From contig NZ_JAKNUT010000001.1 of the NCBI RefSeq assembly GCF_023155855.1, forward strand, positions 1,178,001 through 1,242,000: a DNA stretch of 64,000 nt, written 5' to 3'. This DNA is from Microbacterium aoyamense. GTDB lineage: Bacteria; Actinomycetota; Actinomycetes; Actinomycetales; Microbacteriaceae. Made by a program: the position numbers and the translations under genes. The notes under the pieces were generated by a model. That model searched no databases and was not told where the DNA came from. It saw only the letters and a program-made list of their open reading frames with translations. Shown piece by piece: positions 47,962 through 63,153 of this stretch (position 1 is its first letter; every line of letters starts with the position of its first letter).

Positions 47962-49998
47962 TCATCGGAGGAAGGCGGCGGCGACGCCGGAGTCGACGGG
48001 GATGTGGAGTCCGGTCGTGCGGGAGAGTTCGGGGCCGGTGAGCACGTAGACGGCATCCGCGACGTTCTCGGGCACGACTTCGCGCTTGAGGATCGTACGG
48101 TTGGCGTAGAACTGGCCGAGGTCCTCTTCCTTGACACCGTAGGTCGCGGCGCGGTTGGCACCCCAGCCCGCGGCGAAGATGCCCGAGCCGCGCACGACGC
48201 CGTCGGGGTTGATGCCGTTGACCTTGACGCCGTGCTCGCCGAGTTCGACAGCCAGCAGGCGCACCTGGTGTGCCTGATCGGCCTTCGTCGCGGAGTAGGC
48301 GATGTTGTTCGGACCGGCGAAGACGCTGTTCTTGGAGGAGATGTAGATGACGTCGCCGCCCATGCCCTGCTCGATGAGAGCCTTCGCGGCCGCCTTCGAG
48401 ACGAGGAACGAGCCCTTCGCCATGACGTCGTGCTGCAGGTCCCAGTCCTTCTCGGTGGTCTCGAGCAGCGGCTTGGACAGCGAGAGCCCGGCGTTGTTGA
48501 CGACGAGGTCGATGCCGCCGAACGCGAGCAGGGTCGCGTCGATCGCTGCCTGCACGCCGGCGGCGTCGGCGACGTTCGCCGCGACGCCGATCGCGACGTC
48601 CGTGCCACCGAGTTCGGCGGCCGCGGCCTGCGCCTTCTCGAGGTCCAGATCGGCGACGACGACGCACGCGCCTTCGGCCGCGAGGCGGGTCGCGATGGCC
48701 TTGCCGATGCCGGATGCGGCGCCCGTGACGAACGCGATGCGGCCCTGGTGCGTCTTGGGCTTGGGCATGCGCTGCAGCTTGGCCTCTTCGAGGGCCCAGT
48801 ACTCGATGCGGAACTTCTCGGCATCCGAGATCGGCGAGTACGTCGAGACCGACTCGGCGCCGCGCATGACGTTGATCGCGTTGACGTAGAACTCGCCCGC
48901 GACGCGCGCGGTCTGCTTGTTCGCGCCGTACGAGAACATGCCCACGCCGGGGACGAGCACGATGAGGGGGTCGGCGCCGCGGATCGCGGGGCTCTCGGAG
49001 GTCGCGTGCGCGTCGTAGTACGCCTGGTAGTCGGCGCGGTACTCGGCGTGCAGCTCCTTGAGGCGCGCGATCGACTCTTCGACGGAGGCGGATGCCGGCA
49101 GGTCGAGAAGCATCGGCTTGACCTTCGTGCGGAGGAAGTGGTCGGGGCAGCTCGTGCCCAGCGCCGCGAGGTCGGGCGCCTTCGCCGACGCGAGGAAGTC
49201 CAGCACGACGTCCGAGTCGGTGAAGTGGCCGACCATCGGCTTGTCCGTGGACGCGAGACCGCGGATCGTCGCTGCCAGCGCCGCAGCCTTCGCGTGTCGC
49301 TCCTCGAGCGGAAGCGCCTCGAAGCCCGGGCGGGGCAGCCCGAACGGCACCGCGGAGCCGTGCTCGTCGAGGTACGCCTGCGCCGTCTGGATGATCCACA
49401 GCGAGTTCGCCTCGGACTCCTCGGACGTGTCGCCCCATGCGGTGATGCCGTGCCCGCCGAGGATCGTGCCGATCGCCTGCGGGTTCTGCTTCTTGATCTC
49501 GGCGATGTCGAGGCCCAGCTGGAAGCCGGGGCGCCGCCAGGGCACCCACACGACCTTGTCGCCGAAGATCTTGGCGGTCAGCGCCTCGCCGTCGGCGGCC
49601 GTCGCGATCGCGATGCCGCTGTCGGGGTGCAGGTGGTCCACGTGCGCGGCATCCACCAGCCCGTGCATCGCCGTGTCGATCGACGGTGCCGCGCCACCCT
49701 TGCCGTGCAGGCAGTAGTCGAACGCGGCGACCATCTCGTCCTCACGGTCGACACCGGGGTACACGTTCACGAGGGAGCGGAAGCGGTCCAGCCGCAGCAC
49801 CGCGAGCCCCGACTCGGTCAGCGTGCCGAGATCGCCGCCCGAGCCCTTGACCCACAGCAGTTCGACGGGCTCGCCCGTCACGGGATCGGTCTCGGTGCCC
49901 TTCGCGGACGTGTTGCCGCCGGCGTAGTTCGTGTTCGCGGGGTCGGCGCCGAGACGATTCGAACGGGCGATCAGGTCGGCAGCAGCTGGATTGGTCAT
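47962..49998 (-). CDS. rhaD: Bifunctional rhamnulose-1-phosphate aldolase / lactaldehyde dehydrogenase
   Basis: 678 residues. Residues 1-400: class II aldolase with NTNYAGGNTSAKG, zinc His residues in HVDHLHPDSG and GGHGITAWGD. Residues about 420-678: short-chain dehydrogenase with FVTGAASGIGKAIA and the Tyr-x-x-x-Lys pair in AYSATKADQ. Together they split rhamnulose-1-phosphate into DHAP and L-lactaldehyde and oxidise the latter to L-lactate, as in Bacillus-type RhaEW. It has a GGA-rich site before the ATG. Fifth-from-last enzyme step of the rhamnose route, all in this operon. Confidence 0.93.
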   Translation of the reverse strand: MTNPAAADLIARSNRLGADPANTNYAGGNTSAKGTETDPVTGEPVELLWVKGSGGDLGTLTESGLAVLRLDRFRSLVNVYPGVDREDEMVAAFDYCLHGKGGAAPSIDTAMHGLVDAAHVDHLHPDSGIAIATAADGEALTAKIFGDKVVWVPWRRPGFQLGLDIAEIKKQNPQAIGTILGGHGITAWGDTSEESEANSLWIIQTAQAYLDEHGSAVPFGLPRPGFEALPLEERHAKAAALAATIRGLASTDKPMVGHFTDSDVVLDFLASAKAPDLAALGTSCPDHFLRTKVKPMLLDLPASASVEESIARLKELHAEYRADYQAYYDAHATSESPAIRGADPLIVLVPGVGMFSYGANKQTARVAGEFYVNAINVMRGAESVSTYSPISDAEKFRIEYWALEEAKLQRMPKPKTHQGRIAFVTGAASGIGKAIATRLAAEGACVVVADLDLEKAQAAAAELGGTDVAIGVAANVADAAGVQAAIDATLLAFGGIDLVVNNAGLSLSKPLLETTEKDWDLQHDVMAKGSFLVSKAAAKALIEQGMGGDVIYISSKNSVFAGPNNIAYSATKADQAHQVRLLAVELGEHGVKVNGINPDGVVRGSGIFAAGWGANRAATYGVKEEDLGQFYANRTILKREVVPENVADAVYVLTGPELSRTTGLHIPVDSGVAAAFLR

Positions 49999-50019: not shown

Positions 50020-50850
50020 TCAGAGAGCCGCGAGGCGTGCGGCGATGAGTTCGAGCGACGCGGATGCCGCGGGCCCGGGAGTGTTGAGGTGTCCGTGCGT
50101 CGTGCCGGGCTCGATCTCGAGCTGCACGTCGCGTCCGGCGCGGACGAGGGTCGCGGCGAAGTGCTCGCCCGAGACGCGCAGTTCGTCGACCTCGCCGTTG
50201 ATCATGAGGACGGGTGGGAACTCGGCGACGTCCGCCGATGTCGCACGGCCCGGGATCGCGAAGAGCGGAGCGTCGTCGACGGGGCCGCCGAGGTACGCCT
50301 CGTACATCGCGAGCACGGCCGCGGGGCCGAAGCGGTCGGCTTCGGGGTCGGCGTCGAGCGCGGCGCGGAGCGCGGCATCCGGAGCCGGCTGCACCGCGAG
50401 GAGTGTCGGGTAGGCGAGTACGACGAGAGCGGGGGTGACTGAGCCCTCGGCGAAGAGTCGGAGCGTCGCGCCGGTCGCGAGGTTCGCGCCGGCGCTCGCC
50501 CCGCCGATCGCGAGACGGGATGACTCGATGCCGAGCTCGTCGGCGTGCTCGAGCGTCCACGTCCAGGCGCGCACGATGTCGTCCGAACCGGCCGGGTAGT
50601 GCTCGCCGTCGCGTGCGGCGATGCCCATGCTCTCGGCCCAGACCGCGGGGAGCGGTGCGAGCCGGTAGTCGACCGACACGACCGTCGTGCCGGCCGCGGC
50701 GAGCGCGCGCGCGACGCCGTCGGCCTCGGGCATGTCGAGATCACCCGCGACGAACGCTCCACCGTGCGCCCAGAGCAGACCGGAGCCGTTCGGCTCTCGC
50801 GCGGGGTAGACCCGCACGAGCCCGCCCGCTGCGGCATACGGCTCTGTCAT
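50020..50850 (-). CDS. Alpha/beta hydrolase, HSL-type esterase
   Basis: 276 residues with the hormone-sensitive-lipase features: oxyanion HGGAF (LLWAHGGAFVAGD), nucleophile Ser in GGASAGANLA, Asp in NGEVDELR and His in GTTHGH. No signal peptide, so it works on imported compounds. In this operon it probably removes acetyl or other acyl groups from plant sugars, or opens a lactone. The exact substrate is unknown. SD GAAGGAA precedes the ATG. Confidence 0.85.
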   Translation of the reverse strand: MTEPYAAAGGLVRVYPAREPNGSGLLWAHGGAFVAGDLDMPEADGVARALAAAGTTVVSVDYRLAPLPAVWAESMGIAARDGEHYPAGSDDIVRAWTWTLEHADELGIESSRLAIGGASAGANLATGATLRLFAEGSVTPALVVLAYPTLLAVQPAPDAALRAALDADPEADRFGPAAVLAMYEAYLGGPVDDAPLFAIPGRATSADVAEFPPVLMINGEVDELRVSGEHFAATLVRAGRDVQLEIEPGTTHGHLNTPGPAASASLELIAARLAAL

Positions 50851-50923: not shown

Positions 50924-52090
50924 TTACGCGCCCCAGCCGGCCTGGACGCCGCCGACCCGCTCGGCCTCGATGCGCTCCTGGTAGCCCGAGGCGGCGTAGG
51001 CGGCCATGGGGTCGGCCGGGAGGCCGCGCGACTCGCGCCACTCCGCCAACGCGGGGCGGACGTCGGTGTAGAAGGCGTCCATGAACACTGCCTGGGCGCC
51101 GAGCACATCGTTGGCGGACTGCGCCGCGGCGAGTGCGCCCTGGTCGATGAGGAGCGCACGCGCCGTCATCTCCTGGACGTTCAGCACCGAGCGGATCTGG
51201 CCGGGGATCTTCGCCTCGATGTTGTGGCACTGGTCGAGCATGAAGGCAACATCGGGGTTGTTGAGACCGCCGCCGCGGATGACCTCGACGAGGATGCGGA
51301 ACAGCTGGAACGGGTCGGCCGCGCCGACGATGAGGTCGTCGTCCGCGTAGAAGCGGGAGTTGAAGTCGAACGAGCCGAGCTTGCCGAGGCGCAGGAGCTG
51401 CATGACGATGAACTCGATGTTCGTGCCCGGGGCGTGGTGGCCCGTGTCGAGGCACACCATCGCGCGGTCGCCGAGGGTCGCCACCTGTGCGTACGACGTT
51501 CCCCAGTCCGGAACGTCGGTGTGGTAGAACGACGGCTCGAAGAACTTGTACTCGAGCACGAGTCGCTGGTCGCCCGTGAGGCGCGCGTAGATCTGACGAA
51601 GCGAGTCGTTCAGGCGGTCCTGCCTGGCGCGCATGTCGGTCTGGCCGGGGTAGTTCGAGCCCTCGGCGAGCCAGATCTTCAGATCGCGGGAGCCCGTGGC
51701 ATCCATCACGTCGATGCACTCGAGGTGATGATCGATCGCCTTGCGGCGGATGCGGTCGTCCTCGTGGGTCAGGGCGCCGAACTTGTAGTCCTCGTCCTGG
51801 AAGGTGTTCGAGTTGATGGTGCCGAGCGTCACGCCGAGGTCTTCGGCGTGACGGCGGAGGGCCCCGAAGTCGTCGACCTTGTCCCACGGGATGTGCAGTG
51901 CGACCGACGGCGCGAGGGCGGTCACACGGTTGACCTCGGCCGCGTCGGCCACCTTCTCGAACGGATCGCGCGGGGTGCCCTCGGTCGTCCACACGCGGAA
52001 CCGCGTGCCGGAGTTGCCGAACGCCCACGAGGGGAGCTCGATGCCCTGGCCTTCGAGGGTGGCCTGGATGTCGGGAGACAGCGTCGTCAT
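50924..52090 (-). CDS. rhaI: L-rhamnose isomerase
   Basis: 388 residues. TIM-barrel sugar isomerase of the RhaI (Pseudomonas/actinobacterial) type: ELPSWAFGNSGTRFRVW, ALHIPWDKVDD, GTINSNTFQDEDYKFG, LEYKFFEPSFYHTDVPDWG with a metal Glu, CLDTGHHAPGTNIEF and FDFNSRFYADDD with metal acids. It converts L-rhamnose to L-rhamnulose. Start at the ATG at 52090, overlapping the mutarotase stop by 4 bases. Confidence 0.94.
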   Translation of the reverse strand: MTTLSPDIQATLEGQGIELPSWAFGNSGTRFRVWTTEGTPRDPFEKVADAAEVNRVTALAPSVALHIPWDKVDDFGALRRHAEDLGVTLGTINSNTFQDEDYKFGALTHEDDRIRRKAIDHHLECIDVMDATGSRDLKIWLAEGSNYPGQTDMRARQDRLNDSLRQIYARLTGDQRLVLEYKFFEPSFYHTDVPDWGTSYAQVATLGDRAMVCLDTGHHAPGTNIEFIVMQLLRLGKLGSFDFNSRFYADDDLIVGAADPFQLFRILVEVIRGGGLNNPDVAFMLDQCHNIEAKIPGQIRSVLNVQEMTARALLIDQGALAAAQSANDVLGAQAVFMDAFYTDVRPALAEWRESRGLPADPMAAYAASGYQERIEAERVGGVQAGWGA

Positions 52091-52492: not shown

Positions 52493-53806
52493 TCATCGAA
52501 CGATAGTCGACGCGGGGGATCCGGTCAAGACGTCGAACTCGCGCACGCGCTCGAACAGGTCGTCGTCGCCGACCTGGCCGCCCTTGAGCAGCAGCTCGAG
52601 CCCGTCGATGGCGGCGTCCTCTGCGTGCGCGCGCAGGAGCACGACGTTCCCGCCGAGTGTCGCGGCGATCGACAGCGAGTCGATTCCGAGCAGGCGCACG
52701 ATGCGCCCGGACGTGTCACCGCCGCACACGATCACGCGCCGAGTCGCTCCGCTGCGGACAGAGGCGAGGACGATGGATGCCGCGGCCTCCGCGATCGCGG
52801 CGAGCGGGTCGTCCGCGCTCGCGAACCCGTCGGCGTCGTCGGAGGTCAGGGCGACGCTGCGTCCGGACGCGAGAGCGGCGACGACGTCGTCGAGCGCCCC
52901 GAAAGGCTGCACGTGCCAGCCCGCGACGGCCGCGGCATCCACCTGCCGCCGCGTCTTGGGCGACCGGCTCCCCGAGACCACGAGCACGGGGCCGTGCGTT
53001 TCGCGCTCAGCGACCGAGTCGGACGCGTCGGTCGTGGAGTGCGGAGCGAAGCGACGAGACGCGCCCGCAGAGACGGCGAGGGCGACGGCGCGGCTCAGTC
53101 CTCCCGAGCCGATCGCGAACAGCGGCCGCCGCGACTCCGCGAGTTCGACGAGTGCGTCTCCGATGGTCGCGAGGTGCGCGTCGTCCAGCGCGTCCAGCAC
53201 GAGGCCGGCGACCGCGGAGTCGCGCACCGCGCCCGTGATCGATCCGCCATAGCTCGTCCACGGCAGAGACGCGATCGACAGATCGGTCTGGCGCGCGAGG
53301 TGGCGCGCGAGGTCGGACTCGTCCATCGGAGTCGAGGGGTGGGTCGACATCGTCGGCTGACGGTCGAGGCGGTGGACGAGTCCGGCCTCGGCCGCGAAGT
53401 GATGGCCGAAGACGGTGTACCGCCCGAAGTCGGGCTGCGCGAACAGGATCGGCACGGGCCCCTCGCCGAGCACGTCGCGACCGATCTCGAGCACGCGACC
53501 GAGGCTGCCGATCGTCGGTGAGGAATCGGCGGTCGAGCACGCCTTGTACTGCACGATGTCGGGGTCGATCGTCGCGAGCGCCTCGAAGGCGGAGCGGACC
53601 TCGGCATCCAACGCGTCCGTGCCGAGCGATCGTGCGATGCCCGCGATGCCGACGACGGGCACGTCGGCGGCCGCGTGAGCGAGGGCCGCGGCATCCGGTG
53701 TCCCGACGAACAGACGCCCCGCGAGCCCGCAGCGCGCGAACTGCAGCAGGACGTCGACGCTGCCCGTGACATCGTCGCCGTAGAACGCGATGCGCAGGTC
53801 AGTCAC
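52493..53806 (-). CDS. DUF1537 four-carbon acid-sugar kinase, OiaK/OtnK-like
   Basis: 437 residues from the GTG at 53806, inside the end of the RuBisCO-like gene (8-base overlap). N-terminal acid-binding domain: IAFYGDDVTGSVDVLLQFA, YKACSTADSSPTIGS, FAQPDFGRYTVFGHHFA; C-terminal ATP domain: LVVSGSRSPKT and IVCGGDTSGRIVRLLG. DUF1537 kinases phosphorylate threonate, erythronate, 2-oxo-tetronate or 3-oxo-isoapionate. Pairing with a RuBisCO-like protein is the mark of the 3-oxo-isoapionate route of D-apiose breakdown, where the members are called OiaK and OiaX. That substrate is inferred from context. Confidence 0.85.
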   Translation of the reverse strand: MTDLRIAFYGDDVTGSVDVLLQFARCGLAGRLFVGTPDAAALAHAAADVPVVGIAGIARSLGTDALDAEVRSAFEALATIDPDIVQYKACSTADSSPTIGSLGRVLEIGRDVLGEGPVPILFAQPDFGRYTVFGHHFAAEAGLVHRLDRQPTMSTHPSTPMDESDLARHLARQTDLSIASLPWTSYGGSITGAVRDSAVAGLVLDALDDAHLATIGDALVELAESRRPLFAIGSGGLSRAVALAVSAGASRRFAPHSTTDASDSVAERETHGPVLVVSGSRSPKTRRQVDAAAVAGWHVQPFGALDDVVAALASGRSVALTSDDADGFASADDPLAAIAEAAASIVLASVRSGATRRVIVCGGDTSGRIVRLLGIDSLSIAATLGGNVVLLRAHAEDAAIDGLELLLKGGQVGDDDLFERVREFDVLTGSPASTIVR

Positions 53807-55052
53807 GAGGCGGTCCGAACAGTTCCGTCGCGCGGCGCAGCGCGGGCGACGCGGCGAGGGCCTGATCGACGGACTCGCCGCGCTCGGCCGAGGCCCAGGC
53901 ATCCCGCATGCTCGCGACGCCCTCCGCCGCTCCGCCCGGGTGGCCGTGGATGCCGCCGCCCGCCAGGACGAGCAGGTCGGTCGTGCCGACGGCACGGTAT
54001 GTGGCGTGGGCGAGTCCGCCCCACTGACCCGACGACAGCACGGGGACGGTCGCCCCGATGCCGTCGAGAGGCGTGCGCACGGCGGCGATCGCATCGAGCA
54101 CCTGCGCGTCGGACTCGTAGAACTTGTTCGAGATGCCGTTCGTGTGCAGGTGATCCGCGCCCGACAGACGGGCGAGCTTCTGCCACGCCCGGAACGAGAA
54201 GCCGAGCTGATCGGAGCGGCTGATGGCCCCGAACATCGCCCGGTGGCCGTGGATCGGCACGCGTGCGAAGCGATTCACGTGCGCGAGTCCCGCAAGCCCG
54301 ACCATGTTGATGCACACCATGACGCACGTGCCGCCAGCGCTCACGACGAGGTCGTGATTCTGCTCCAGGAGGTGGATGTCGTCGGTGATGTTGAAGGCGT
54401 ACATCGGCATGCGGCCCGTGCGGTCGGCATGCCGCTTCAGGACGGGCATCACCGCGGCGACGCGCGCCGCGAGCGGAGCCGACGGTCCGTTGCCCTGCAG
54501 CTCGTCGTCCTTGATGAAGTCGACGCCCGCACGGGCGAGTTCGTCCACGACCTCGGCGAGTTGCTCGGGCGAGAGCCCGATCGAGGGCTTCACGATCGTG
54601 CCGATCATCGCGCCCTGTTCACGACCGACGAGCGTCCGGGTGCCCGCGACGCCGAAGCGCGGACCGCCGTACCGCTCGGCGAACGCGACGGGCAGATCGA
54701 GGTCGACGAGCTTGATCGCCGCGAGCTCCTTGATCTCGAACAGATTGCCGGCGACGGCCGCCTGGAGGTTCGGGATCGACGGGCCGAAGTTGTCGAGCGG
54801 GAAGCGCAGACGCAGGAGCGCGCGCCGCCGAAGGGCGGGGTCGCCGACGGATCCCGGGAGGGCCGAAGCATCCGTCATCGGGATCTCTTCGAGACTCTCG
54901 ACCTGGGCAGCGAAGCGGGCCCGCACGGCGCCTGACTCGCGTTCGACGCGCACGAACGTCCCCGTCGACTGCTCGCCCGCGAGCACTTCGGCGGCCCGCT
55001 CGAGCGGCAGCGACGTCTCGATGACGTACGAGGCCGTGACGTGATCGGTCAT
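53799..55052 (-). CDS. RuBisCO-like protein (form IV), OiaX-like
   Basis: 417 residues from the ATG at 55052 (behind AAAGGCGG); an ATG at 55070, forming ATGA with the previous stop, would add six. Large-subunit fold with most catalytic residues: Lys155 in IVKPSIGLS (Lys175 of plant enzyme), the carbamate-metal motif Lys181-Asp-Asp-Glu184 in DFIKDDELQGN, the His in HGHRAMF and a loop-6-like Lys in NGISNKFYES. The second Lys of KPK is Ser (KPS), which speaks against CO2 fixation. Members beside a DUF1537 kinase act on 3-oxo-isoapionate 4-phosphate as transcarboxylase/hydrolase; this assignment is likely but not proven by the sequence. Confidence 0.88.
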   Translation of the reverse strand: MTDHVTASYVIETSLPLERAAEVLAGEQSTGTFVRVERESGAVRARFAAQVESLEEIPMTDASALPGSVGDPALRRRALLRLRFPLDNFGPSIPNLQAAVAGNLFEIKELAAIKLVDLDLPVAFAERYGGPRFGVAGTRTLVGREQGAMIGTIVKPSIGLSPEQLAEVVDELARAGVDFIKDDELQGNGPSAPLAARVAAVMPVLKRHADRTGRMPMYAFNITDDIHLLEQNHDLVVSAGGTCVMVCINMVGLAGLAHVNRFARVPIHGHRAMFGAISRSDQLGFSFRAWQKLARLSGADHLHTNGISNKFYESDAQVLDAIAAVRTPLDGIGATVPVLSSGQWGGLAHATYRAVGTTDLLVLAGGGIHGHPGGAAEGVASMRDAWASAERGESVDQALAASPALRRATELFGPPRD

Positions 55053-55069: not shown

Positions 55070-57031
55070 TCACCAGACGATCGGCAGCCACACCGACATC
55101 TCGCCGGGTCCGCGGTTGCCCCACGCGAAGTAGGGGATGAAGCGGGCGGGCGTCGTGTCGAGCACGGCATCCGAGATATCCGCGTAGAGCTCGTCGCCCG
55201 GCCGCGGGAGGACGGCGAGCTCGGTCTCGAGCGCGATGAGCCGCGTGCCTGCGATCTCGGTCTCGGCGACGCGCAGTTCGGATCCGCGACGCAGGGCAGC
55301 CTGCTCGAGGACCACTCCGTCGGGCAGATCGGCGCTCTCGAGGCAGTACACGACCGGGCCGCGCTGCACGGCCACCTGGTTGGTCGCCTCCTCGGCGAGA
55401 CGGTGGGCGCGCAGCACGCGCACGGGCATCGGCAGATCGAGCACGATCTCGTCGCCCACGCGCCACGCGCGCTCGATCACGGCATACTTGCCCGGGGCGG
55501 TGATCCCGACGCGCTCGCCGTTCACTTCGAGCGTCGCATCCTTCGACCATCCCGGCACGCGCAGGCGGAGCGGGATGCCGGAGCCGCTCGCTTCGGTCAC
55601 GGTGAACGTGATGCGCCCGTGCCAGGGGTAGTCGCTCTCTTCGCGAAGGGCGAGCGTGCTCTCGCCGAGCGCCGCGCGCAGTTCGCTGCCGCCGTACTGG
55701 TGGACGTACAGGCCGTCGGCTGCGACCGAAGCGGCGCGTTCATGGAACCGCGCGAGCGTGCGCGCCGTGTTCGGCGGACAGCAGAAGCAGCTGAGATAGC
55801 GCTCGCGCAGCCGCTCGTCCGACGGCGGCGGTGAGGGGACGGGATGCAGGCCCGTGTCGCCGGGGCGACGCAGCTCCCACGGCAGATCGCGCACCTGCCG
55901 CAGCGCGTTCGTGTAGAAGTAATCGTTGCCGTCGAGGCTGATCCCCGCGAGGAACGCGTTGAACGCGATGCGCTCGACGAGATCGGCGTACTTCGCGTCG
56001 CCGGTGAGCGCCAGCATCCGCTCGCTCCACAGCAGCAGCCCGATGTTCGCGCACGACTCGGCGTGCGCTGTCGTGTGCGGCAGCTGGTAGGAGCGGCCGT
56101 ACGCCTGGTGGATGCGGCTGATCTCCTCTTGCCAGGGGTGGCCGTCGGGCGAGGCGCCGTCGTAGAGAGCGCCCGCGCCGCCGGTGACGTACAGCTTCGT
56201 CTCGACGACGTCGGTCCAGAGGTTCTCGAGCACGGCGGTCAGCTCGGCGTCGCCCGTCTCGGCGACCAGGTCGGCGAGCCCGGCGTACAGATAGTTCGCC
56301 CGCACGGCGTGACCCGCGACGGTCGTCTGGTCGCGCACCGGGAGGCGGTCCTGGTTGTCGTCGCCGCCCTCGAAGTCGTCGCGCACGCGCACGAACGCCT
56401 CGGCGAGCTCCAGATACCTCTTCTCGCCCGTCGCCCTGTACAGCTCGATGACGGCCATGTAGTGCGACGGGCAGATGGCGCTGCGCGCGAGCTCGAGCGG
56501 CTTGTTCGTGGCGAGGTCTTCGAGGAAGGATGCTGCGCCCCGCGCGACCTCCAGGAGCGTCGTCGAGCCGGTGACCTCGTAGTGCCGCACGCCGGCGGTG
56601 ATGAGGTGCCCGAGGTTGTAGGTCTCGAAGTGGAAGCGGTCGGCGAGCGCCGTGGCCGACACCTCGTTGCGATCGGCGATGAGCGTGGGCGTGTGCAGGT
56701 AGCCGTCCTCGCGCTGCACCGATGCGATGAGGTCGGCTGTGCGCTCGATCGTCTCGGCGAGCCACGGCTCGGGATCGGTCTCGAGCTGTGCGATCGCGGC
56801 CTCGAGCCACTTGTAGAAGTCGCCGTCCATGAACGGCGGACCCGTGTGCGTTCCGGGCTCGAGTCCCGCCGCGATCTCGAAGTTGCGCAGGCCGGGGCTG
56901 ACGTCGGGATCGCTCAGCGAGGCCCACATGCTCGGCACGGTCGCGGTGCGCGTGCGCGTGTGCACGTCGCCCCAGAATCCGCTCGCCCAGCGGGCATCGG
57001 GAGCGCCGAGCGGGCGCAGTGGCGCGGTCAT
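55070..57031 (-). CDS. GH127-type beta-L-arabinofuranosidase
   Basis: 653 residues, no signal peptide, so intracellular. The family zinc site is complete: Glu325 and Cys327 in AHAESCANIG, and the pair Cys417-Cys418 in SCFCCPPNT, the first of which is the nucleophile in characterised members. The (alpha/alpha)6 region (FHFETYNLGHLITAG, AICPSHYMAVIELYRATG) and C-terminal beta domains (VAVQRGPVVYCLE) are as in HypBA1. It should release beta-L-arabinofuranose or a similar furanose (possibly apiose-like) from short glycans. It overlaps the racemase-like gene by ATGA. Confidence 0.88.
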   Translation of the reverse strand: MTAPLRPLGAPDARWASGFWGDVHTRTRTATVPSMWASLSDPDVSPGLRNFEIAAGLEPGTHTGPPFMDGDFYKWLEAAIAQLETDPEPWLAETIERTADLIASVQREDGYLHTPTLIADRNEVSATALADRFHFETYNLGHLITAGVRHYEVTGSTTLLEVARGAASFLEDLATNKPLELARSAICPSHYMAVIELYRATGEKRYLELAEAFVRVRDDFEGGDDNQDRLPVRDQTTVAGHAVRANYLYAGLADLVAETGDAELTAVLENLWTDVVETKLYVTGGAGALYDGASPDGHPWQEEISRIHQAYGRSYQLPHTTAHAESCANIGLLLWSERMLALTGDAKYADLVERIAFNAFLAGISLDGNDYFYTNALRQVRDLPWELRRPGDTGLHPVPSPPPSDERLRERYLSCFCCPPNTARTLARFHERAASVAADGLYVHQYGGSELRAALGESTLALREESDYPWHGRITFTVTEASGSGIPLRLRVPGWSKDATLEVNGERVGITAPGKYAVIERAWRVGDEIVLDLPMPVRVLRAHRLAEEATNQVAVQRGPVVYCLESADLPDGVVLEQAALRRGSELRVAETEIAGTRLIALETELAVLPRPGDELYADISDAVLDTTPARFIPYFAWGNRGPGEMSVWLPIVW

Positions 57032-57681
57032 GCCGTCTCCTCCACGACCGAGCGAAGGCGATCGACGCCGGGGGCGATGCTCGTGAGCACCGGGACGTCG
57101 AGTGATACCGCGTCGGCGGCCGAGGCCATCGACGCCTGCGCGAGCACGACCACGTCGGCGTCCGCGCCGAGCCGGCGGATCGCGGCGGCGACGAGCTCGT
57201 CGTGCCGCGGACGATCGCCCGACGAGACGGCGGCGAACGCCCCCTCGACGACTTCCTCGACGATGACGGGCTCGGCCCCCGCGAGGGCGGCGCGTTCGCG
57301 CAGTAGCTCCACCGTCGGCACGAGCGTCGTCGGCAGGGTCGCGAGCACCGCGACGCGCGGACCCGCGGCGACCGCGGCATCCGCCATCGCTTCGTCGATG
57401 CGCAGCACGGGGATGCCGACCTCGGCGGCCGTGGAGGCGGCGAAGTGCGAGATCGACGAGCACGTGAACATGACGACGTCCGCACCACCCGCCTTCGCGG
57501 CGCGGGCGAGGTCGACGAGGCGTTCGGGGACGGATGCCGCGCGCGACGCATCCCCGAGGTCGGCGACGATCCGATCGTCGAGGTAGTTCACGAACGTCGC
57601 ATCGGGCAGCGCCGCGCGGGCGCGCTCGGTCACCGGGCCGATCACGACGGCGCCCGTGTGGAGGAAGGCGACGCGGGTCAT
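57028..57681 (-). CDS. Asp/Glu-racemase-fold protein with a single catalytic cysteine
   Basis: 217 residues of the Asp/Glu/hydantoin racemase superfamily: VAFLHTGAVVIGPVTERA at the start, catalytic Cys74 in MFTCSSISHFA. The second cysteine expected near LA-C-A-S-M is Gln182 (VLAQASMAS). Loss of one of the two cysteines rules out normal two-base racemisation and suggests a decarboxylase-, isomerase- or lyase-type reaction. It sits between the two glycosidase genes with 4-base overlaps on both sides, so it must act in the sugar route. The reaction is unknown. Confidence 0.8.
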   Translation of the reverse strand: MTRVAFLHTGAVVIGPVTERARAALPDATFVNYLDDRIVADLGDASRAASVPERLVDLARAAKAGGADVVMFTCSSISHFAASTAAEVGIPVLRIDEAMADAAVAAGPRVAVLATLPTTLVPTVELLRERAALAGAEPVIVEEVVEGAFAAVSSGDRPRHDELVAAAIRRLGADADVVVLAQASMASAADAVSLDVPVLTSIAPGVDRLRSVVEETA

Positions 57682-60287
57682 GCGGCATCCACCGCCTCGA
57701 TCAGGGCGACGACGCGCTCGTGCGTGCCGTGGCCGAGCTCTTCGGGGTCGGCGCCCTCGAGGTCGAGGACGGCGCTCGCGCCGACGGGCACCTCGACCCG
57801 CACGCGCAGCTCACCGCCGTCGATGCTCCACTCGATCGCCGCCGTGCCGTAGGGCGTGCGGTGGCGGGCGGATGCCTCGGTGAGGCCGCCGCCGGGCCGC
57901 GGCGCGAACCGGATCCGGCGATAGCCCGGCTCGGCCGCCTCGAGGCCCGCGACGACGCGGTGCAGCCAATCGGCGACGGCACCCAGCGCGTAGTGGTTGA
58001 ACGACGTCATGCTGCCGGAGTTCACGCGGCCGTCGGGGAGCATCGAATCCCAGCGCTCCCACACCGTCGTCGCACCCATCTCGACCTGGTAGAGCCACGA
58101 CGGGCACTCCCGCTCGAGCAGCAGATCGTATGCCGCGTCGAGCTGCCCGTGCGCGCTCAGGGCGTCGGTGACGACCGGGGTGCCGACGAAGCCCGTCGCG
58201 ATGCGGTTGCCCGCTTCGTGCACGAGCTGCGCGAGGCGCTCCGCGGCAGGTGCGCGCAGGTGCTCGGGCAGAAGCTCGAACCGCAGGGCGATCGCGTACG
58301 CGGTCTGGGCGTCGGACGTCATCCGGCCGTCGGCGTCGACGTAGCGGCCGACGAACGCTGCCGCAGCCTCGTCGGCGAGCGTGCCGTAGTGCTGAGCGGC
58401 ATCCTGCTCGTCGAGCGCGTCCGCCATGCGTGCGACGAGCCGCGCCGAGAGCGCGAAGTAGGCGCTCGCCACGAGGTGGCGGTCGGTGCGGGCATCCGCG
58501 GGATCCTGCGGGGGAGCGGCGGGGTCGAGCCAGTCGCCGAGCTGGTAGCCCGTGTCCCACAGGCGAGAGGGGCCGGCGATGTCAGCCTGCAGGTCGACCC
58601 ACGCGCGGGCGCTGTCGAACTGATCGCGCAGCACCTGGAGGTCTCCGAACCGCTCGTAGAGGGTCCACGGGACGACGGTCGCGGCATCCCCCCACGCGGC
58701 GCCCGGGCGCTGCGGGGTCCACATCGTGTCGGCGGGGATGACGGGCACGAACCACGGCACGGTGCCGTCGGGCAGCTGTTCGGCCGAAAGGTCGCGCAGC
58801 CAGCCGGTGAGGAATCCCGACGAGTCGAAGAGGAAGGACGCGGTCGGCGCGAAGACCTGGATGTCGCCCGTCCACCCCAGGCGTTCGTCGCGCTGCGGGC
58901 AGTCGGTGGGGATGTCGACGAAGTTGCCGCGCATGCCCCACACGATGTTCTCGTGCAGACGGTCCAGGAGTGGATCGGATGACGTGAACCAGCCCGTGCG
59001 CTCGAGGTCGGTGTGCAGCACGCGAGCGGTGAATGCTCCCGCTGCTGCGTCGGCGTCGAGGTCCCCCGGCCAGCCGTCGACCTCGACGTACTGGAAGCCG
59101 TGGAACGTGAATCGCGGCTCCCACTCCTCGCCCTCGGGGCGCCCGGCGAACGTGTAGACATCCGTCGACTTCGCGTCGCGCAGCGGACGGGTGTAGAGCT
59201 CGCCGTCCTGCAGCACTTCAGCCGTGCGCAGCGTCACGGTCGTGCCGGCGGGCGCCGCGCCGCGCAGGCGCACGACGCCGGTGAGGTTCTGGCCGAAGTC
59301 CAGGATGCGGCGGCCGCTCGGCGTCGTCAGCACCGCGACCGGTGCGACCTCCTGCGTCACGCGGACGGGTGGGCCGGTCGGGGCGACGAGGGTCGCGCGG
59401 TCGCGTCGCCGGAGCTGCACACGGCTCCACTCCGCGTCGTCGAGTCCGGCGCGGGACCAGCCGGGAACCTCGTCGCGCGCATCGTAGGTCTCGCCGTCGT
59501 AGAGGCTCGACGACACGATGGGGCTGGGAGCCGCCCGCCACGTCGTGTCGGTCGCGACCGTCTCGCGGGCGCCGTCGGCGTAGACGAGTTCGAGCTGCCC
59601 GATGAAGGACTGGTCGTCGCCGAACAGGTTGCGGAACCCGCCGCGCCAGCCGAGTCGGCCGCGGTACCAGCCGTCACCGAGCCACGCGCCGATCGCGTTC
59701 GCGCCCTCGGCGACGAGGTCGGTCACGTCGTAGGTGTAGTAGCGCAGGCGCTCGCGGTACACGGTCCACCCTGGCGAGAGCACGTCGTCCCCGACGCGCA
59801 CGCCGTTGAGCTCCGCCTGGTACAGGCCGTGGGCGCTGGCGTAGAGGCGCGCCCGCACGAGGCCGGGCCGCACGTCGAACTCGCGTCGCACGAGGGCCGC
59901 GCGACGCGTGTCGGTCATGGGGTTCTCGTTCCAGATCGGGCCGACGGGGCCCGCGACCCAGTCCGATGCGTCGAGGAGCCCGGCCTCGACGCTCGCCCAC
60001 GGCCCGGGCGCGCTCCATGACCCGTCGACGCCCTGCACCGAGACGCGCACCTCCGCGCGGTCGCGAGAAGCGAGGTCGGCGGCCGGCCAGGGAACGAGGA
60101 CCTGCTCGCCGGACTCGACGTCGAACGACTCTGCTCGGGCATCCGTCCGCACGTCGACGCGGTACGCGGACTGTCGCCAGCCCTCGGGCGCGGCCTCGAC
60201 GATCCACGAGAGCCGAGGGCGGGATTCGCCGATCCCGAGAGCCTCTCGATGATGCTCGAAACGGGGGGCCGACACCGTGGCCGTCAT
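57678..60287 (-). CDS. Alpha-L-rhamnosidase, GH78
   Basis: 869 residues. N-terminal fibronectin-like part (PRLSWIVEAAPEGWRQSAYRVDVR), beta-sandwich with LYASAHGLYQAELNGVRVGDDVLSPGW, (alpha/alpha)6 catalytic domain with the signature DCPQRDERLGWTGD at 462-475 holding active-site acids, and C-terminal YRRIRFAPRPGGGL. No signal peptide, so it acts on imported oligosaccharides or glycosides, releasing L-rhamnose. It is the first gene of the ten-gene operon. AGGAG stands 6 bases before the ATG. Confidence 0.94.
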   Translation of the reverse strand: MTATVSAPRFEHHREALGIGESRPRLSWIVEAAPEGWRQSAYRVDVRTDARAESFDVESGEQVLVPWPAADLASRDRAEVRVSVQGVDGSWSAPGPWASVEAGLLDASDWVAGPVGPIWNENPMTDTRRAALVRREFDVRPGLVRARLYASAHGLYQAELNGVRVGDDVLSPGWTVYRERLRYYTYDVTDLVAEGANAIGAWLGDGWYRGRLGWRGGFRNLFGDDQSFIGQLELVYADGARETVATDTTWRAAPSPIVSSSLYDGETYDARDEVPGWSRAGLDDAEWSRVQLRRRDRATLVAPTGPPVRVTQEVAPVAVLTTPSGRRILDFGQNLTGVVRLRGAAPAGTTVTLRTAEVLQDGELYTRPLRDAKSTDVYTFAGRPEGEEWEPRFTFHGFQYVEVDGWPGDLDADAAAGAFTARVLHTDLERTGWFTSSDPLLDRLHENIVWGMRGNFVDIPTDCPQRDERLGWTGDIQVFAPTASFLFDSSGFLTGWLRDLSAEQLPDGTVPWFVPVIPADTMWTPQRPGAAWGDAATVVPWTLYERFGDLQVLRDQFDSARAWVDLQADIAGPSRLWDTGYQLGDWLDPAAPPQDPADARTDRHLVASAYFALSARLVARMADALDEQDAAQHYGTLADEAAAAFVGRYVDADGRMTSDAQTAYAIALRFELLPEHLRAPAAERLAQLVHEAGNRIATGFVGTPVVTDALSAHGQLDAAYDLLLERECPSWLYQVEMGATTVWERWDSMLPDGRVNSGSMTSFNHYALGAVADWLHRVVAGLEAAEPGYRRIRFAPRPGGGLTEASARHRTPYGTAAIEWSIDGGELRVRVEVPVGASAVLDLEGADPEELGHGTHERVVALIEAVDAA

Positions 60288-60433: not shown

Positions 60434-61264
60434 ATGTACATCGCAGTGACCGGAAGCAGCGGAACGCTCGGACGAGCGACGGTCGAACGGCTGCGCGCCG
60501 ACGGGCACGACGTCATCGGCTTCGACCTCACCGGCACGGCCGGGCCAGGATTCACACGCGTCGATCTGTCCGACTACGGGCAGACGCTCGACGCGTTCTT
60601 GGGCGTGACCGCGCGCCACACCGGGCTCGACGCGGTCGTGCACCTCGCTGCCGTCCCCGTCAACGGTCTGGTGCCCGACGTCACGACGTTCGAGAACAAT
60701 CTCTCGGCCTCGTACCACGTGCTCTTCGCGGCCCATCGCGCCGGCATCCGAAAGGTCGTCCTCGCGTCGAGCATCACGGCGATGGGCTTCCCGTTCGAGA
60801 TCGCGCCGCCGGCGCTGCCCGTGGACGAGACGTACACCCGCGCGTTCAACACCTACGGCCTCGGCAAGGTCGCCGAAGAGGCGATCGCCGCGCAGCTCGT
60901 CGGCTGGGACCCGGATGCCTCGATCACGGCGCTGCGGTTCACCAACGTGGTCGCACCCGACGCCTACGACACCTTCGCCCGCGCCGCCGATCCCGACTAC
61001 CGTCGCGATCTCGTCGGCTCGTGGGTCGACGCGCGTGACGGAGCCGAAGCGGTCGCCCTCGCGCTCGCCGGAGCGCAGCCCGGCTTCGAGGTCTACAACG
61101 TCGCTGCTCCAGGCTCCGGCAACGCCGCGCCGTCGCGCGCCGTCGCGGAGCGATGGTTCCCGGGCATCCCCGTCGCCGAAGACCTCGGCGAGTTCGAGTC
61201 GCTCATGTCCACGCGCAAGATCCAGGACCGCCTCGGCTTCCGCGCCCGCTACGACTGGCGCTGA
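60434..61264 (+). CDS. NAD(P)-dependent extended short-chain dehydrogenase/epimerase
   Basis: 276 residues. Nucleotide site MYIAVTGSSGTLGRATVERL, AVVHLAAVPVNG, catalytic Ser in LASSITAMGF and Tyr-x-x-x-Lys in NTYGLGKVAEEA. The layout resembles uronate dehydrogenases and sugar epimerases. It is divergent from the rhamnosidase operon and shares its operator region, so it probably oxidises or epimerises a sugar or sugar acid from the same substrate. GGAGG stands 7 bases before the ATG. Confidence 0.85.
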   Translation: MYIAVTGSSGTLGRATVERLRADGHDVIGFDLTGTAGPGFTRVDLSDYGQTLDAFLGVTARHTGLDAVVHLAAVPVNGLVPDVTTFENNLSASYHVLFAAHRAGIRKVVLASSITAMGFPFEIAPPALPVDETYTRAFNTYGLGKVAEEAIAAQLVGWDPDASITALRFTNVVAPDAYDTFARAADPDYRRDLVGSWVDARDGAEAVALALAGAQPGFEVYNVAAPGSGNAAPSRAVAERWFPGIPVAEDLGEFESLMSTRKIQDRLGFRARYDWR

Positions 61265-61308: not shown

Positions 61309-62217
61309 TCATCCCTTGACAGCGCCGGCCGCGAGGCCCTTCATGATGCGCTGGTTCAAGAAGAGGTAGAGGATCAGGATTCCGAACACCGTGATGCAGA
61401 TCGCGGCGAACAGGGGCCCGTAGTTGATCGCGCCGTACTCGCCCGAGAAGTTGAGCAGCCCGACCTGGATCGTGTTGAGGCTCTTCTTGCCGCCGAAGAT
61501 GAGCGCGATGAGCAGGTCGTTCCAGATGAGGAAGAACTGCACGATCGCGACCGTGAGGATCGCGTTGCGCATCATCGGGAAGCCGATCGAGAAGAACGCC
61601 CGCACCATCGAGGCGCCGTCGAGGGTCGACGCCTCGAAGATCTCGCGCGGGATGGCGCGGAAGTACGTCGCCATCATGAACACCGTGAGCGGCAGGCCGC
61701 CCGCCGTGTAGATGAGGATCATCGGCCAGTGCGAGCCGTTGATGCCGAGCTGGAAGAACGAGTTGAACAGCGGCAGGATGATCATCTGGCCGGGGATCAT
61801 GATGCCCGCGAGGAACAGCAGCAGGATCGTGCCACGCCCCTTGAAGACGAGCACCTCGAGGGCGAAGCCCGCCGCCGTGCCGAGCAGCACGATGAAGAAG
61901 AGCGACGGGATCGTGACGATGATCGAGTTCGTGATCGTCGTGGCCAGGTTCCCGGTCTCCCACGCCACGGCGTAGTTGCTCCATTGCCAGACCTCGGGCA
62001 TCGCGTACGACGGGTTGTTGAGGAAGTCGCTGTTCGACTTGAACGAGTTGATGACCATCCAGAACAGCGGGTACGCGAACACGACGACGAGGACGACCAC
62101 CGTGAGCCACGTCGGGATGCGGCGCAGCACACGCATGACCGCCTGGCCCGGCGTGCGGCGATGCGGTTCGAAGCGTCGAGGGGTCGAGACGGCTGTGGTG
62201 TCGAGAGTGGAAGTCAT
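61309..62217 (-). CDS. Sugar ABC transporter permease, MalG-type
   Basis: 302 residues with six membrane helices and the ABC-permease EAA loop EASTLDGASMVRAFFSIGFPM. The first helix is LTVVVLVVVFAYPLFWMVINSF; the C-terminus ends FLNQRIMKGLAAGAVKG, as in CUT1 sugar importers. It forms the channel with the permease upstream, 12 bases away. No ATPase gene follows; CUT1 systems in actinobacteria usually share an MsiK-type ATPase encoded elsewhere. Confidence 0.93.
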   Translation of the reverse strand: MTSTLDTTAVSTPRRFEPHRRTPGQAVMRVLRRIPTWLTVVVLVVVFAYPLFWMVINSFKSNSDFLNNPSYAMPEVWQWSNYAVAWETGNLATTITNSIIVTIPSLFFIVLLGTAAGFALEVLVFKGRGTILLLFLAGIMIPGQMIILPLFNSFFQLGINGSHWPMILIYTAGGLPLTVFMMATYFRAIPREIFEASTLDGASMVRAFFSIGFPMMRNAILTVAIVQFFLIWNDLLIALIFGGKKSLNTIQVGLLNFSGEYGAINYGPLFAAICITVFGILILYLFLNQRIMKGLAAGAVKG

Positions 62218-62229
62218 TGCCGGAGCCCC

Positions 62230-63111
62230 TTAGACCGTGTTGTCGCGTCGTGAAGAGCGGAAGATGAGCAGCGTGACGATGAGGCACATGACGGTCAGCA
62301 GGAGGGCGATCGTCGAGCCGTAGCCGAAGTCGCTGAACTGGAACGCCGTGCGGTACATGTAGATCGTCAGCGGGGTGGTCTGGTTGCCGGGACCGCCGCC
62401 CGTGAGGGCGAACACCGAGTCGAAGACCTTGATCGTGCCGTTGATGCTGAAGATGAACGAGGCGAAGAGGATCGGCAGCGACATCGGCAGGATGATGTGA
62501 CGGAAGAGCTTGAAGGTCTTCGCGCCGTCGATCCGCGCGGACTCGATGATGTCGTCGGGGATGTCCAGGAGTCCCGAGAAGATCAGGACGCCGTAGAAGC
62601 CGACCGAGCGCCAGACGTCCATGATGATGATGACGATGAAGGCGGTGCCGCCGGCGCCGAGCCAGTCGACGGGGGCGATGCCGACGTTGACGAGCAGCTC
62701 GTTGACGAGTCCGTCGCTCGGTGCCGACTGGAAGAGCTTCTGGTACAGGAGCGAGATGGCGACGGTCGGCAGCACGACGGGGAAGAACACGAGCGTGCGC
62801 ACGAGCACCGAGGACTTGCGGAGCACGAACTGGTACAGGAGCGCGAGGCCGTAGCCGACGACCACCTGGAAGAGCGTCACGATCAGGGCGTACTTGATCG
62901 TGAACCAGAACGCGTCGGCGACGTACGGATCGCTGAAGAGCCGCTCGAAGTTCTCGACGCCGTTGAACTCGAAGCCGGTGAGGATGCTGCCGGTGAAGAA
63001 CGTCAGGCCGAACGACCAGACGACGGGCGCGAGGATGATGAGCGTGTAGACGAGCAGTGCCGGCGTGAGCAGCAGCATGATCGCCTTGCGGTCGCCGAGG
63101 ACGGACTTCAT
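62230..63111 (-). CDS. Sugar ABC transporter permease, MalF-type
   Basis: 293 residues from the ATG at 63111 (behind AAAGG). Six helices, beginning IMLLLTPALLVYTLIILAPVVWSFGL, with EAA loop IESARIDGAKTFKLFRHIILP and the FDSVFALTGGGPGNQTTPL motif of CUT1 permeases. It pairs with the MalG-type permease and the solute-binding protein; the likely cargo is a plant oligosaccharide or glycoside for the adjacent glycosidases. Confidence 0.93.
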   Translation of the reverse strand: MKSVLGDRKAIMLLLTPALLVYTLIILAPVVWSFGLTFFTGSILTGFEFNGVENFERLFSDPYVADAFWFTIKYALIVTLFQVVVGYGLALLYQFVLRKSSVLVRTLVFFPVVLPTVAISLLYQKLFQSAPSDGLVNELLVNVGIAPVDWLGAGGTAFIVIIIMDVWRSVGFYGVLIFSGLLDIPDDIIESARIDGAKTFKLFRHIILPMSLPILFASFIFSINGTIKVFDSVFALTGGGPGNQTTPLTIYMYRTAFQFSDFGYGSTIALLLTVMCLIVTLLIFRSSRRDNTV

Positions 63112-63153
63112 TGTGGCGGCCTTTCGGTGCGAAGTGGGGCGGGTACAGGATGA

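Follow-up and report, generated by a model that had tools for sequence, protein, structure and literature searches.

What does an enzyme with a racemase fold do in a sugar operon when it has kept only one of the two catalytic cysteines of its relatives? The question is raised by a gene in a 64,000-nucleotide stretch of Microbacterium aoyamense DNA (NCBI RefSeq assembly GCF_023155855.1, contig NZ_JAKNUT010000001.1, positions 1,178,001 to 1,242,000 of the forward strand; hereafter the window). Its neighbors encode a GH127 glycoside hydrolase, a RuBisCO-like protein (RLP) and a DUF1537 kinase. We consider it probable that the racemase-fold protein acts as an isomerase with one catalytic base and starts a short pathway for the breakdown of aceric acid, one of the sugars in rhamnogalacturonan II (RG-II), a plant pectin.

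One cysteine and one glutamine in a racemase fold

The protein belongs to the Asp/Glu/hydantoin racemase family PF01177 (72.6 bits in a profile search, against a gathering cut-off of 31). Its AlphaFold2 model (pLDDT 96.6, pTM 0.91) has the Asp/Glu-racemase fold: structure comparison matched it to aspartate racemase 1jfl with Z 22.1 and an rmsd of 2.5 over 210 aligned residues, and to arylmalonate decarboxylase (AMDase) 2vlb with Z 16.4 and an rmsd of 3.6 over 203. Two-base cofactor-independent racemases have two catalytic cysteines, one per half. The preliminary description of this DNA had placed Cys74 at the first catalytic position and Gln182 at the second, and both the residues and their numbering proved right. 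In a profile of 81 sequences, TCSS (with Cys74) pairs with the first-cysteine motif of 2eq5, and LAQASMA (with Gln182) pairs with LGCGGMA of the allantoin racemase 5lfd, a solved structure. In the AlphaFold2 model, C74 comes after strand 69-72 and before a helix that begins at 75, and Q182 comes after strand 177-180 and before a helix that begins at 183: the two residues are modeled at equivalent points of the two halves, each two residues past a strand and just ahead of a helix. By its residues, then, the protein is not a two-base racemase, having C74 alone and Gln182 at the second site. A check of the whole protein showed that C74 is its only cysteine. Because the protein has a single cysteine, no other cysteine of the same chain can fill the second site, and a nearby substitute, which the preliminary description had named as one finding that would speak against it, is ruled out.

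Is the missing cysteine a defect? C and Q occupy positions 74 and 182 in 41/41 aligned sequences, down to ∼31% identity (the alignment holds the window's protein and 40, mostly the strongest, of 77 other rows; 37 weaker rows were left out). A wider scan found both residues in 81/81 sequences, a count biased for Q182 since one search pattern was VLAQASMA. His8, Thr9, Asp35, Arg54, Asp96, His160, Asp161, Ser184, and Met185 are also invariant in 81/81. Because C74 and Q182 are unchanged in 41/41 aligned sequences, the missing cysteine is a subfamily trait; to judge from the alignments, the C/Q pair is a signature and not a defect. It had also been claimed that two-base racemases need both cysteines. 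This is mostly right, with an exception: EcL-DER is functional with Thr replacing one Cys, according to passages of PMC8142540. Since a one-cysteine racemase is thus known, one lost cysteine is by itself no proof of new chemistry; the Gln and the gene context carry the argument.

Genomic company of the C/Q protein

We wondered which genes accompany the C/Q protein. The main scan for relatives kept the best 80 of 514 confirmed relatives, and one of its two search patterns contains Gln182. The scan loci come from Actinomycetota, Bacteroidota, Planctomycetota, Verrucomicrobiota, and a Ramlibacter metagenome-assembled genome (MAG). RLP, kinase, and racemase stand together in 68/80 loci, and GH127 lies in the same stretch in 47 of these 68; the match thresholds behind these counts were chosen for this analysis, and several of the genomes are MAGs, in which absences are weak. 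Among 398 genomes of the window's family, Microbacteriaceae, a close RLP (at least 61% identity) occurs in seven and any RLP match in 28. The same seven genomes hold the close racemases (E values of at most 1.3e-58, the next match being at 2.5e-38), and 64/398 have any match to the racemase-fold protein. Five of 345 genomes of Bacteroidia, the class to which Paradesertivirga belongs, carry a close RLP (eight have any RLP match, the three further ones carrying distant RLPs only, 27–30%), and the racemase is found in the same five and in no other. Two of the five entered via the racemase scan, leaving 3/3 as the unbiased part of this result. An aceric acid hydrolase over the NF049879 cut-off was detected in 11/345 Bacteroidia genomes, including all five with RLP and racemase. 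A search for the same gene beside RLPs elsewhere, which had been proposed as a check, was positive.

This co-occurrence bears on another reading, in which the protein would be an accessory racemase for amino acids or hydantoins with no part in the pathway. The annotation is by fold alone (PF01177) and would allow it; however, the second cysteine is missing, and close RLPs and racemases co-occur in the same genomes in two phyla. We find such an accessory role hardly credible.

The Bacteroidota loci extend the linkage. In all 29 of the RLP tree, RLP, kinase, and racemase occur with a bile-acid-symporter-family transporter, and GH127 lies in the same stretch in 14. Thirteen of the 15 loci without a local GH127 have a hydrolase over the cut-off elsewhere in the genome; L110 has a fragment at a contig end, and L138 was outside the search. 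In Paradesertivirga (L121), a GH106 rhamnosidase gene comes first and is followed by aceric acid hydrolase (1196 bits against the NF049879 cut-off of 950), RLP, kinase, racemase, and transporter, in this order. Twenty-six genomes, reached via their loci, were searched for the hydrolase. Racemase, kinase, and close RLP are present in 22 of them (the L112 RLP being on another contig), and the hydrolase is over the cut-off in 15, at 650–934 bits in five, and a contig-end fragment in L110; the Ramlibacter MAG (L119) has none. The other four carry a racemase homologue but no RLP in the locus, and none of these passes the hydrolase cut-off: the L102 genome has an RLP elsewhere (47%) resembling OiaX of the D-apiose pathway and a hydrolase match of 406 bits, L148 and L152 have RLPs of 29% only, with 527 bits and no match, respectively, and L123 is discussed below. 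The gene, its residues, its fold, and its linkage to the RLP, the kinase, and aceric acid hydrolase are shown by these analyses.

A single origin of the racemase-linked RLPs was considered and rejected: the tree resolves them into two supported groups and Ramlibacter, with apiose-type RLPs between, although branches are long and the root is unsure. One group has 38 actinobacterial rows (one labeled Planococcus; support 99/93), with a Microbacterium oxydans protein as the nearest relative of the window RLP (86% identical). The other has 35 Bacteroidota-Planctomycetota-Verrucomicrobiota rows (support 99/100), and Ramlibacter stands separate. The RLP/racemase link holds in both groups, which has to be set against the shared ancestry that our probabilities (see below) ignore. 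RLP residue 342 is Gly (SSGQ motif) in 74/74 racemase-linked RLPs, Ala in 4/4 RLPs beside ApnO-like genes, and mixed in the other three; it is a weak marker, possibly of specificity.

Three side observations belong here. The bile-acid-symporter-family transporter (PF01758; L121:10656-11996) occurs in 35/80 scan loci and is a candidate aceric acid importer. Two Bacillota clusters with no RLP in the locus (L123:6720-17394, its labels being those of Pfam, and L148:6695-19607) hold transporter genes (by inspection), a racemase homologue, an FGGY kinase, a class II fructose-bisphosphate-type aldolase, GH38, and a DUF1537 kinase. Among viral contigs, 36 stretches matched a search pattern and 0 encoded a racemase-fold relative.

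A proposed route for aceric acid and its alternatives

In the window, the racemase start overlaps the GH78 stop and the racemase stop overlaps the GH127 start, so that the gene lies inside a tight operon (Table 1). Downstream follow GH127, RLP, DUF1537 kinase, rhamnose isomerase, esterase, rhamnulose-phosphate aldolase/dehydrogenase, and rhamnulokinase. The preliminary description had put the gene inside a sugar operon, which stands, and next to the RLP, which does not: the GH127 gene lies between. It gave no strand; the ORF is genuine and is read from the minus strand. The best match of the window GH127 in the PDB is 5mqo (611.5 bits), which we take to be BT1003, versus 347.5 and 262.8 bits for the arabinofuranosidases 4qjy and 3wkw (a beta-L-arabinofuranosidase). 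BT1003 is named aceric acid hydrolase, an exception in the GH127/146 tree, in passages of PMC10850190. The window RLP retains the KPSIG, FIKDDE, HGHR, and NKF motifs and scores 394.8 bits with the OiaX model NF042437, below its cut-off of 700, as does the apiose-type comparison L178 (468). The kinase is a DUF1537 kinase by both domains (SBD_N 149.5 bits, NBD_C 67.5 bits, each over cut-off) and scores 255.5 bits with the OiaK model NF042436, below its cut-off of 700 (L178: 387).

Table 1. Positions of the racemase-fold gene, its two key codons and the surrounding genes in the window.
Feature	Position	Strand	Details
Racemase-fold gene	57028..57681	minus	Start codon ATG at 57681, stop codon at 57028; 217 residues (ORF listing)
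Cys74 codon	57460..57462	minus	First catalytic position; sole cysteine of the protein
Gln182 codon	57136..57138	minus	At the second catalytic (Cys) position
GH127, closest to aceric acid hydrolase	55070..57031	minus	NF049879 764.7 bits, below cut-off 950
RLP of OiaX type, proposed decarboxylase	53799..55052 (start could be 55070)	minus	PF00016 212.8 bits
DUF1537 kinase of OiaK type	52493..53806	minus	PF07005 + PF17042 (SBD_N + NBD_C)
L-rhamnose isomerase RhaI	50924..52090	minus	TIGR02635 619.4 bits, over cut-off
Alpha/beta-hydrolase esterase	50020..50850	minus	PF07859
Bifunctional rhamnulose-1-phosphate aldolase/dehydrogenase	47962..49998	minus	TIGR02632 996 bits, over cut-off
Rhamnulokinase (FGGY)	46416..47843	minus	TIGR02627 402.8 bits, below cut-off 528
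GH78 alpha-L-rhamnosidase	57678..60287	minus	PF17389 411 bits
NAD-dependent epimerase/dehydratase-family protein, divergent from the operon	60434..61264	plus	PF01370
ABC transporter permease (homologues in 24/80 scan loci)	61309..62217	minus	PF00528 51.4 bits
ABC transporter permease	62230..63135	minus	PF00528 61 bits

What could these enzymes do with aceric acid? From the gene company and the chemistry, we infer the substrate, the reaction, the order of the steps, and the role of each residue. Passages of PMC8565777 give aceric acid as 3-C-carboxy-5-deoxy-L-xylose. It carries a methyl at C5, leaving no primary hydroxyl, and its C3 carboxyl is not beta to a carbonyl. GH127 would release aceric acid from RG-II, and the racemase-fold enzyme would shift its carbonyl from C1 to C2, giving HOCH2-CO-C(OH)(COOH)-CHOH-CH3. 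Cys74 would remove the C2 proton and hand it to C1 on the same face, while Gln182 would hold the oxygens and deliver no proton from the opposite side. The ketose product would have a new primary hydroxyl at C1 and would now be a beta-keto acid. The DUF1537 kinase would phosphorylate its O1, the RLP would remove the C3 carboxyl as CO2 to leave a 5-deoxy-pentulose 1-phosphate, and cleavage of this product into dihydroxyacetone phosphate (DHAP) and acetaldehyde would fall to a class II aldolase, a role that the rhamnulose-phosphate aldolase (47962..49998) may fill here. A cleavage of this kind, with 5-deoxyribulose 1-phosphate as substrate and DHAP and acetaldehyde as products, is proposed in the review PMC6302742.

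Why assign the isomerisation to the racemase-fold protein? In the minimal clusters, the carbonyl shift is the step without an enzyme and the racemase-fold protein is the enzyme without an assignment. What a carbonyl shift needs is one base on one face, as in triose-phosphate isomerase; a protein in which C74 remains and the second base is gone matches this requirement. Since aceric acid has no primary hydroxyl until it is isomerised, isomerisation would precede the kinase. The ketose would have the same core as 3-oxo-isoapionate, HOCH2-CO-C(OH)(COOH)-CH2OH, the core shared by OiaK and OiaX substrates being HOCH2-CO-C(OH)(COOH)-R. RG-II aceric acid is O-acetylated, and the operon esterase (50020..50850) may therefore be a deacetylase.

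Two other ways to start the route were tried and rejected. Rhamnose isomerase might carry out the isomerisation throughout the pathway's hosts, and this would be possible in the 11/12 genomes with matches outside the cluster, but only the clusters of the window and L075 contain the gene (1/80 scan loci and 1/68 core loci). Moreover, genome G107, with racemase, RLP, kinase, and GH127 present, gave neither PF16896 nor a rhamnose isomerase in a genome search (best 42.8 bits). The other candidate, oxidation at C1 by the divergent epimerase-family protein, would leave the kinase no primary hydroxyl, and the gene is in 13/80 scan loci.

The linkage data are equally compatible with an epimerase of the same pathway, one that inverts a single carbon of aceric acid, of its ketose, or of the 5-deoxy-pentulose 1-phosphate and uses a second acid/base other than cysteine, such as the invariant His160. 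In its favor are the racemase-type fold, the activity of EcL-DER despite a Thr in place of one Cys, and the invariance of His8 and Asp161 alongside His160. Nevertheless, the second site holds Gln, which is not a general acid/base, in 41/41 sequences. With an epimerase, moreover, the minimal clusters and G107 would have no enzyme for the aldose-ketose step, and the 3-oxo-tetronate kinase loci in which OtnI was not detected (see below) would stay unexplained. We therefore regard an epimerase as unlikely.

The preliminary description suggested that the protein may supply a missing decarboxylation or isomerisation, and it cited arylmalonate decarboxylase as an analogy for decarboxylation. Isomerisation holds up, as a step on a branched sugar acid that the pathway lacks, in linkage with the RLP. 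Decarboxylation does not, since that step would already fall to the RLP, a relative of the 3-oxo-isoapionate-4-phosphate decarboxylase OiaX that is linked in 68/80 scan loci. A cofactor-free decarboxylase acting on a branched sugar acid would agree with the structural match to 2vlb and with single-cysteine members of the fold being able to decarboxylate. The latter is stated in passages of PMC4996985, where a reference title also cites the first-cysteine-only AMDase mutant Gly74Cys/Cys188Ser for inverted enantioselectivity. The same source gives AMDase as Gly74/Cys188, with Cys188 as the only proton donor. The window protein has the reverse arrangement, so the analogy is weaker than it appeared, a mirror image in which the other cysteine is retained; aspartate racemase is the closer fold match, and, until it is isomerised, aceric acid lacks the activation that decarboxylation requires. 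We consider a decarboxylase very unlikely.

The likeness of RLP and kinase to OiaX and OiaK raises the alternative of a variant D-apiose pathway, in which the racemase-fold protein would handle apionate or 3-oxo-isoapionate. In the apiose pathway, the beta-keto acid is made by the oxidoisomerase ApnO. We presume a gene to be ApnO-like when it has PF16896 and lies beside an ApnL-like gene; the NCBIfam ApnO model gave no match, and the ApnL-like genes, at 268 and 215 bits, do not reach their cut-off of 750. An apiose-like module with ApnL-like and ApnO-like genes is found shortly after the window ends at contig position 1242000 (L191:5041-13569, from 1245040 in contig coordinates); by inspection, it also holds SDR, TIM-like, RpiB-like, and DhaK-like genes. 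Passages of PMC6302742 place apiose, too, in RG-II and have apiose-pathway RLPs decarboxylate or transcarboxylate 3-oxo-isoapionate 4-phosphate. On the other hand, PF16896 was not found in 21/21 non-actinobacterial genomes with RLP and racemase, GH127 is present in 47/68 core loci, and apiose isomerisation yields no carboxyl for an RLP to remove. We judge this variant quite improbable.

The two sugars may nevertheless share enzymes. The window's genome has one DUF1537 gene and one RLP match with both front ends present, so that a single kinase and a single RLP may serve both aceric acid and apiose breakdown. Next to the related operon L035 stand two further genes, one of the apiosidase family and one ApnL-like; together with the ApnO-like and ApnL-like genes of the window's genome, they fit RG-II use. 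Seven OiaX-like RLP loci are without the racemase (0/7), and four of them have ApnO-like and ApnL-like genes. In the other three (L175, L179, and L180), an OiaX-like RLP is paired with a DUF1537 gene, and both the racemase and an ApnO-like gene are missing from the surroundings; these loci sit on long branches of the RLP tree and form a third context.

Several findings weigh against the aceric acid route. The window's GH127, RLP, and kinase are all below the cut-offs for aceric acid hydrolase, OiaX, and OiaK. Six of the seven close-racemase genomes in the window's family, the window's own among them, carry an ApnO-like gene. Six of the 11 Bacteroidia genomes with a cut-off-passing hydrolase are without RLP and racemase. 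Conversely, the Ramlibacter MAG, with RLP, kinase, and racemase, gave no hydrolase match in a genome search. The L123 genome (G421) has no RLP match, yet its GH127 scores 769 bits versus the window's 765; hence, the hydrolase score alone does not settle the substrate. Rhamnose-isomerase matches of at least 395 bits (three over cut-off) occur in 11/12 genomes checked and could isomerise there. Finally, we know of no aldose-ketose isomerase among members of this fold. With these points weighed, we still hold the isomerase to be the probable function.

Distant relatives and known systems

Does the C/Q protein also serve other sugar acids? Distant C/Q relatives lie beside DUF1537 kinases in 22/34 loci versus ∼0.9% expected per locus (from ∼1.4 DUF1537 genes per genome, 50 matches in 35 genomes; these probabilities ignore shared ancestry). 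A class II aldolase is also present in 16 of the 22 (L046, L047, L049, L050, L054-L057, L059, L061-L063, L067, L069, L072, and L073; the L073 seed scores 231 against the OtnC-type model cut-off of 250). Thirteen of these 16 pass the 3-oxo-tetronate kinase cut-off of 350, L046 (255), L062 (343), and L067 (347) falling below it. An OtnI-like gene was found in 1/16, having been sought from one seed within ∼10 kb, so that distant ones may be missed. Passages of PMC12540250 give the threonate pathway as isomerase OtnI, DUF1537 kinase OtnK, and decarboxylase OtnC, in this order. A 3-oxo-tetronate kinase and decarboxylase need a preceding isomerase and an OtnI-like gene was found in 1/16 loci, which makes the C/Q protein a ready candidate: the distant C/Q protein may replace OtnI in these loci. 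Two points count against this extension. L069 and L071 hold an OtnI-like gene alongside the racemase homologue, which speaks against strict replacement, and 6/22 DUF1537 loci (L040, L042-L045, and L051) are without class II aldolase and have kinases that fit no model well.

Taken together, these results suggest, at somewhat less than an even chance, that the C/Q subfamily consists of one-base carbonyl-shift isomerases that prepare substrates for DUF1537 kinases, here completing an aceric acid pathway with a new RLP reaction and elsewhere replacing OtnI. If so, aceric acid, whose release is known (BT1003), would gain a fate, the RuBisCO superfamily would gain a reaction, and the loss of one of two catalytic cysteines could convert a racemase to an isomerase. 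A function would also be offered for a large racemase-family group (64/398 family genomes; 514 relatives confirmed, with C/Q checked in part). Among the matches listed in open-licence literature, we found no pathway for aceric acid catabolism or for an RLP/racemase pair with RG-II or DUF1537, which is not proof of absence.

How does the proposed system compare with known ones? The L-threonate pathway (OtnI, OtnK, OtnC) has the same logic of isomerase, DUF1537 kinase, and decarboxylase; however, the OtnI-like protein of L071 belongs to the TIM-barrel family PF01261, another fold, and the decarboxylase is a class II aldolase homologue, not an RLP. The D-apiose pathway is alike in that a DUF1537 kinase and an RLP, OiaK and OiaX, act on a branched sugar acid. 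It uses ApnO, whereas here the racemase-fold protein stands beside the kinase/RLP pair and PF16896 was not detected in 21/21 non-actinobacterial genomes. Arylmalonate decarboxylase shares the fold and the single catalytic cysteine but keeps Cys188 and has Gly74, while the window protein keeps the first cysteine and has Gln at the second site. EcL-DER, an L-aspartate/glutamate-specific racemase (5ell, 5elm), likewise has one catalytic cysteine replaced, although by Thr rather than Gln and with an amino-acid substrate. Finally, the Asp/Glu racemase family (1jfl, glutamate racemases, 5lfd) has in common with the window protein the full-length fold, the first catalytic cysteine, and two similar halves; the window protein differs in Gln182 for the second cysteine, in the 11–21% identity of its structural matches, and in its place among sugar-acid genes.

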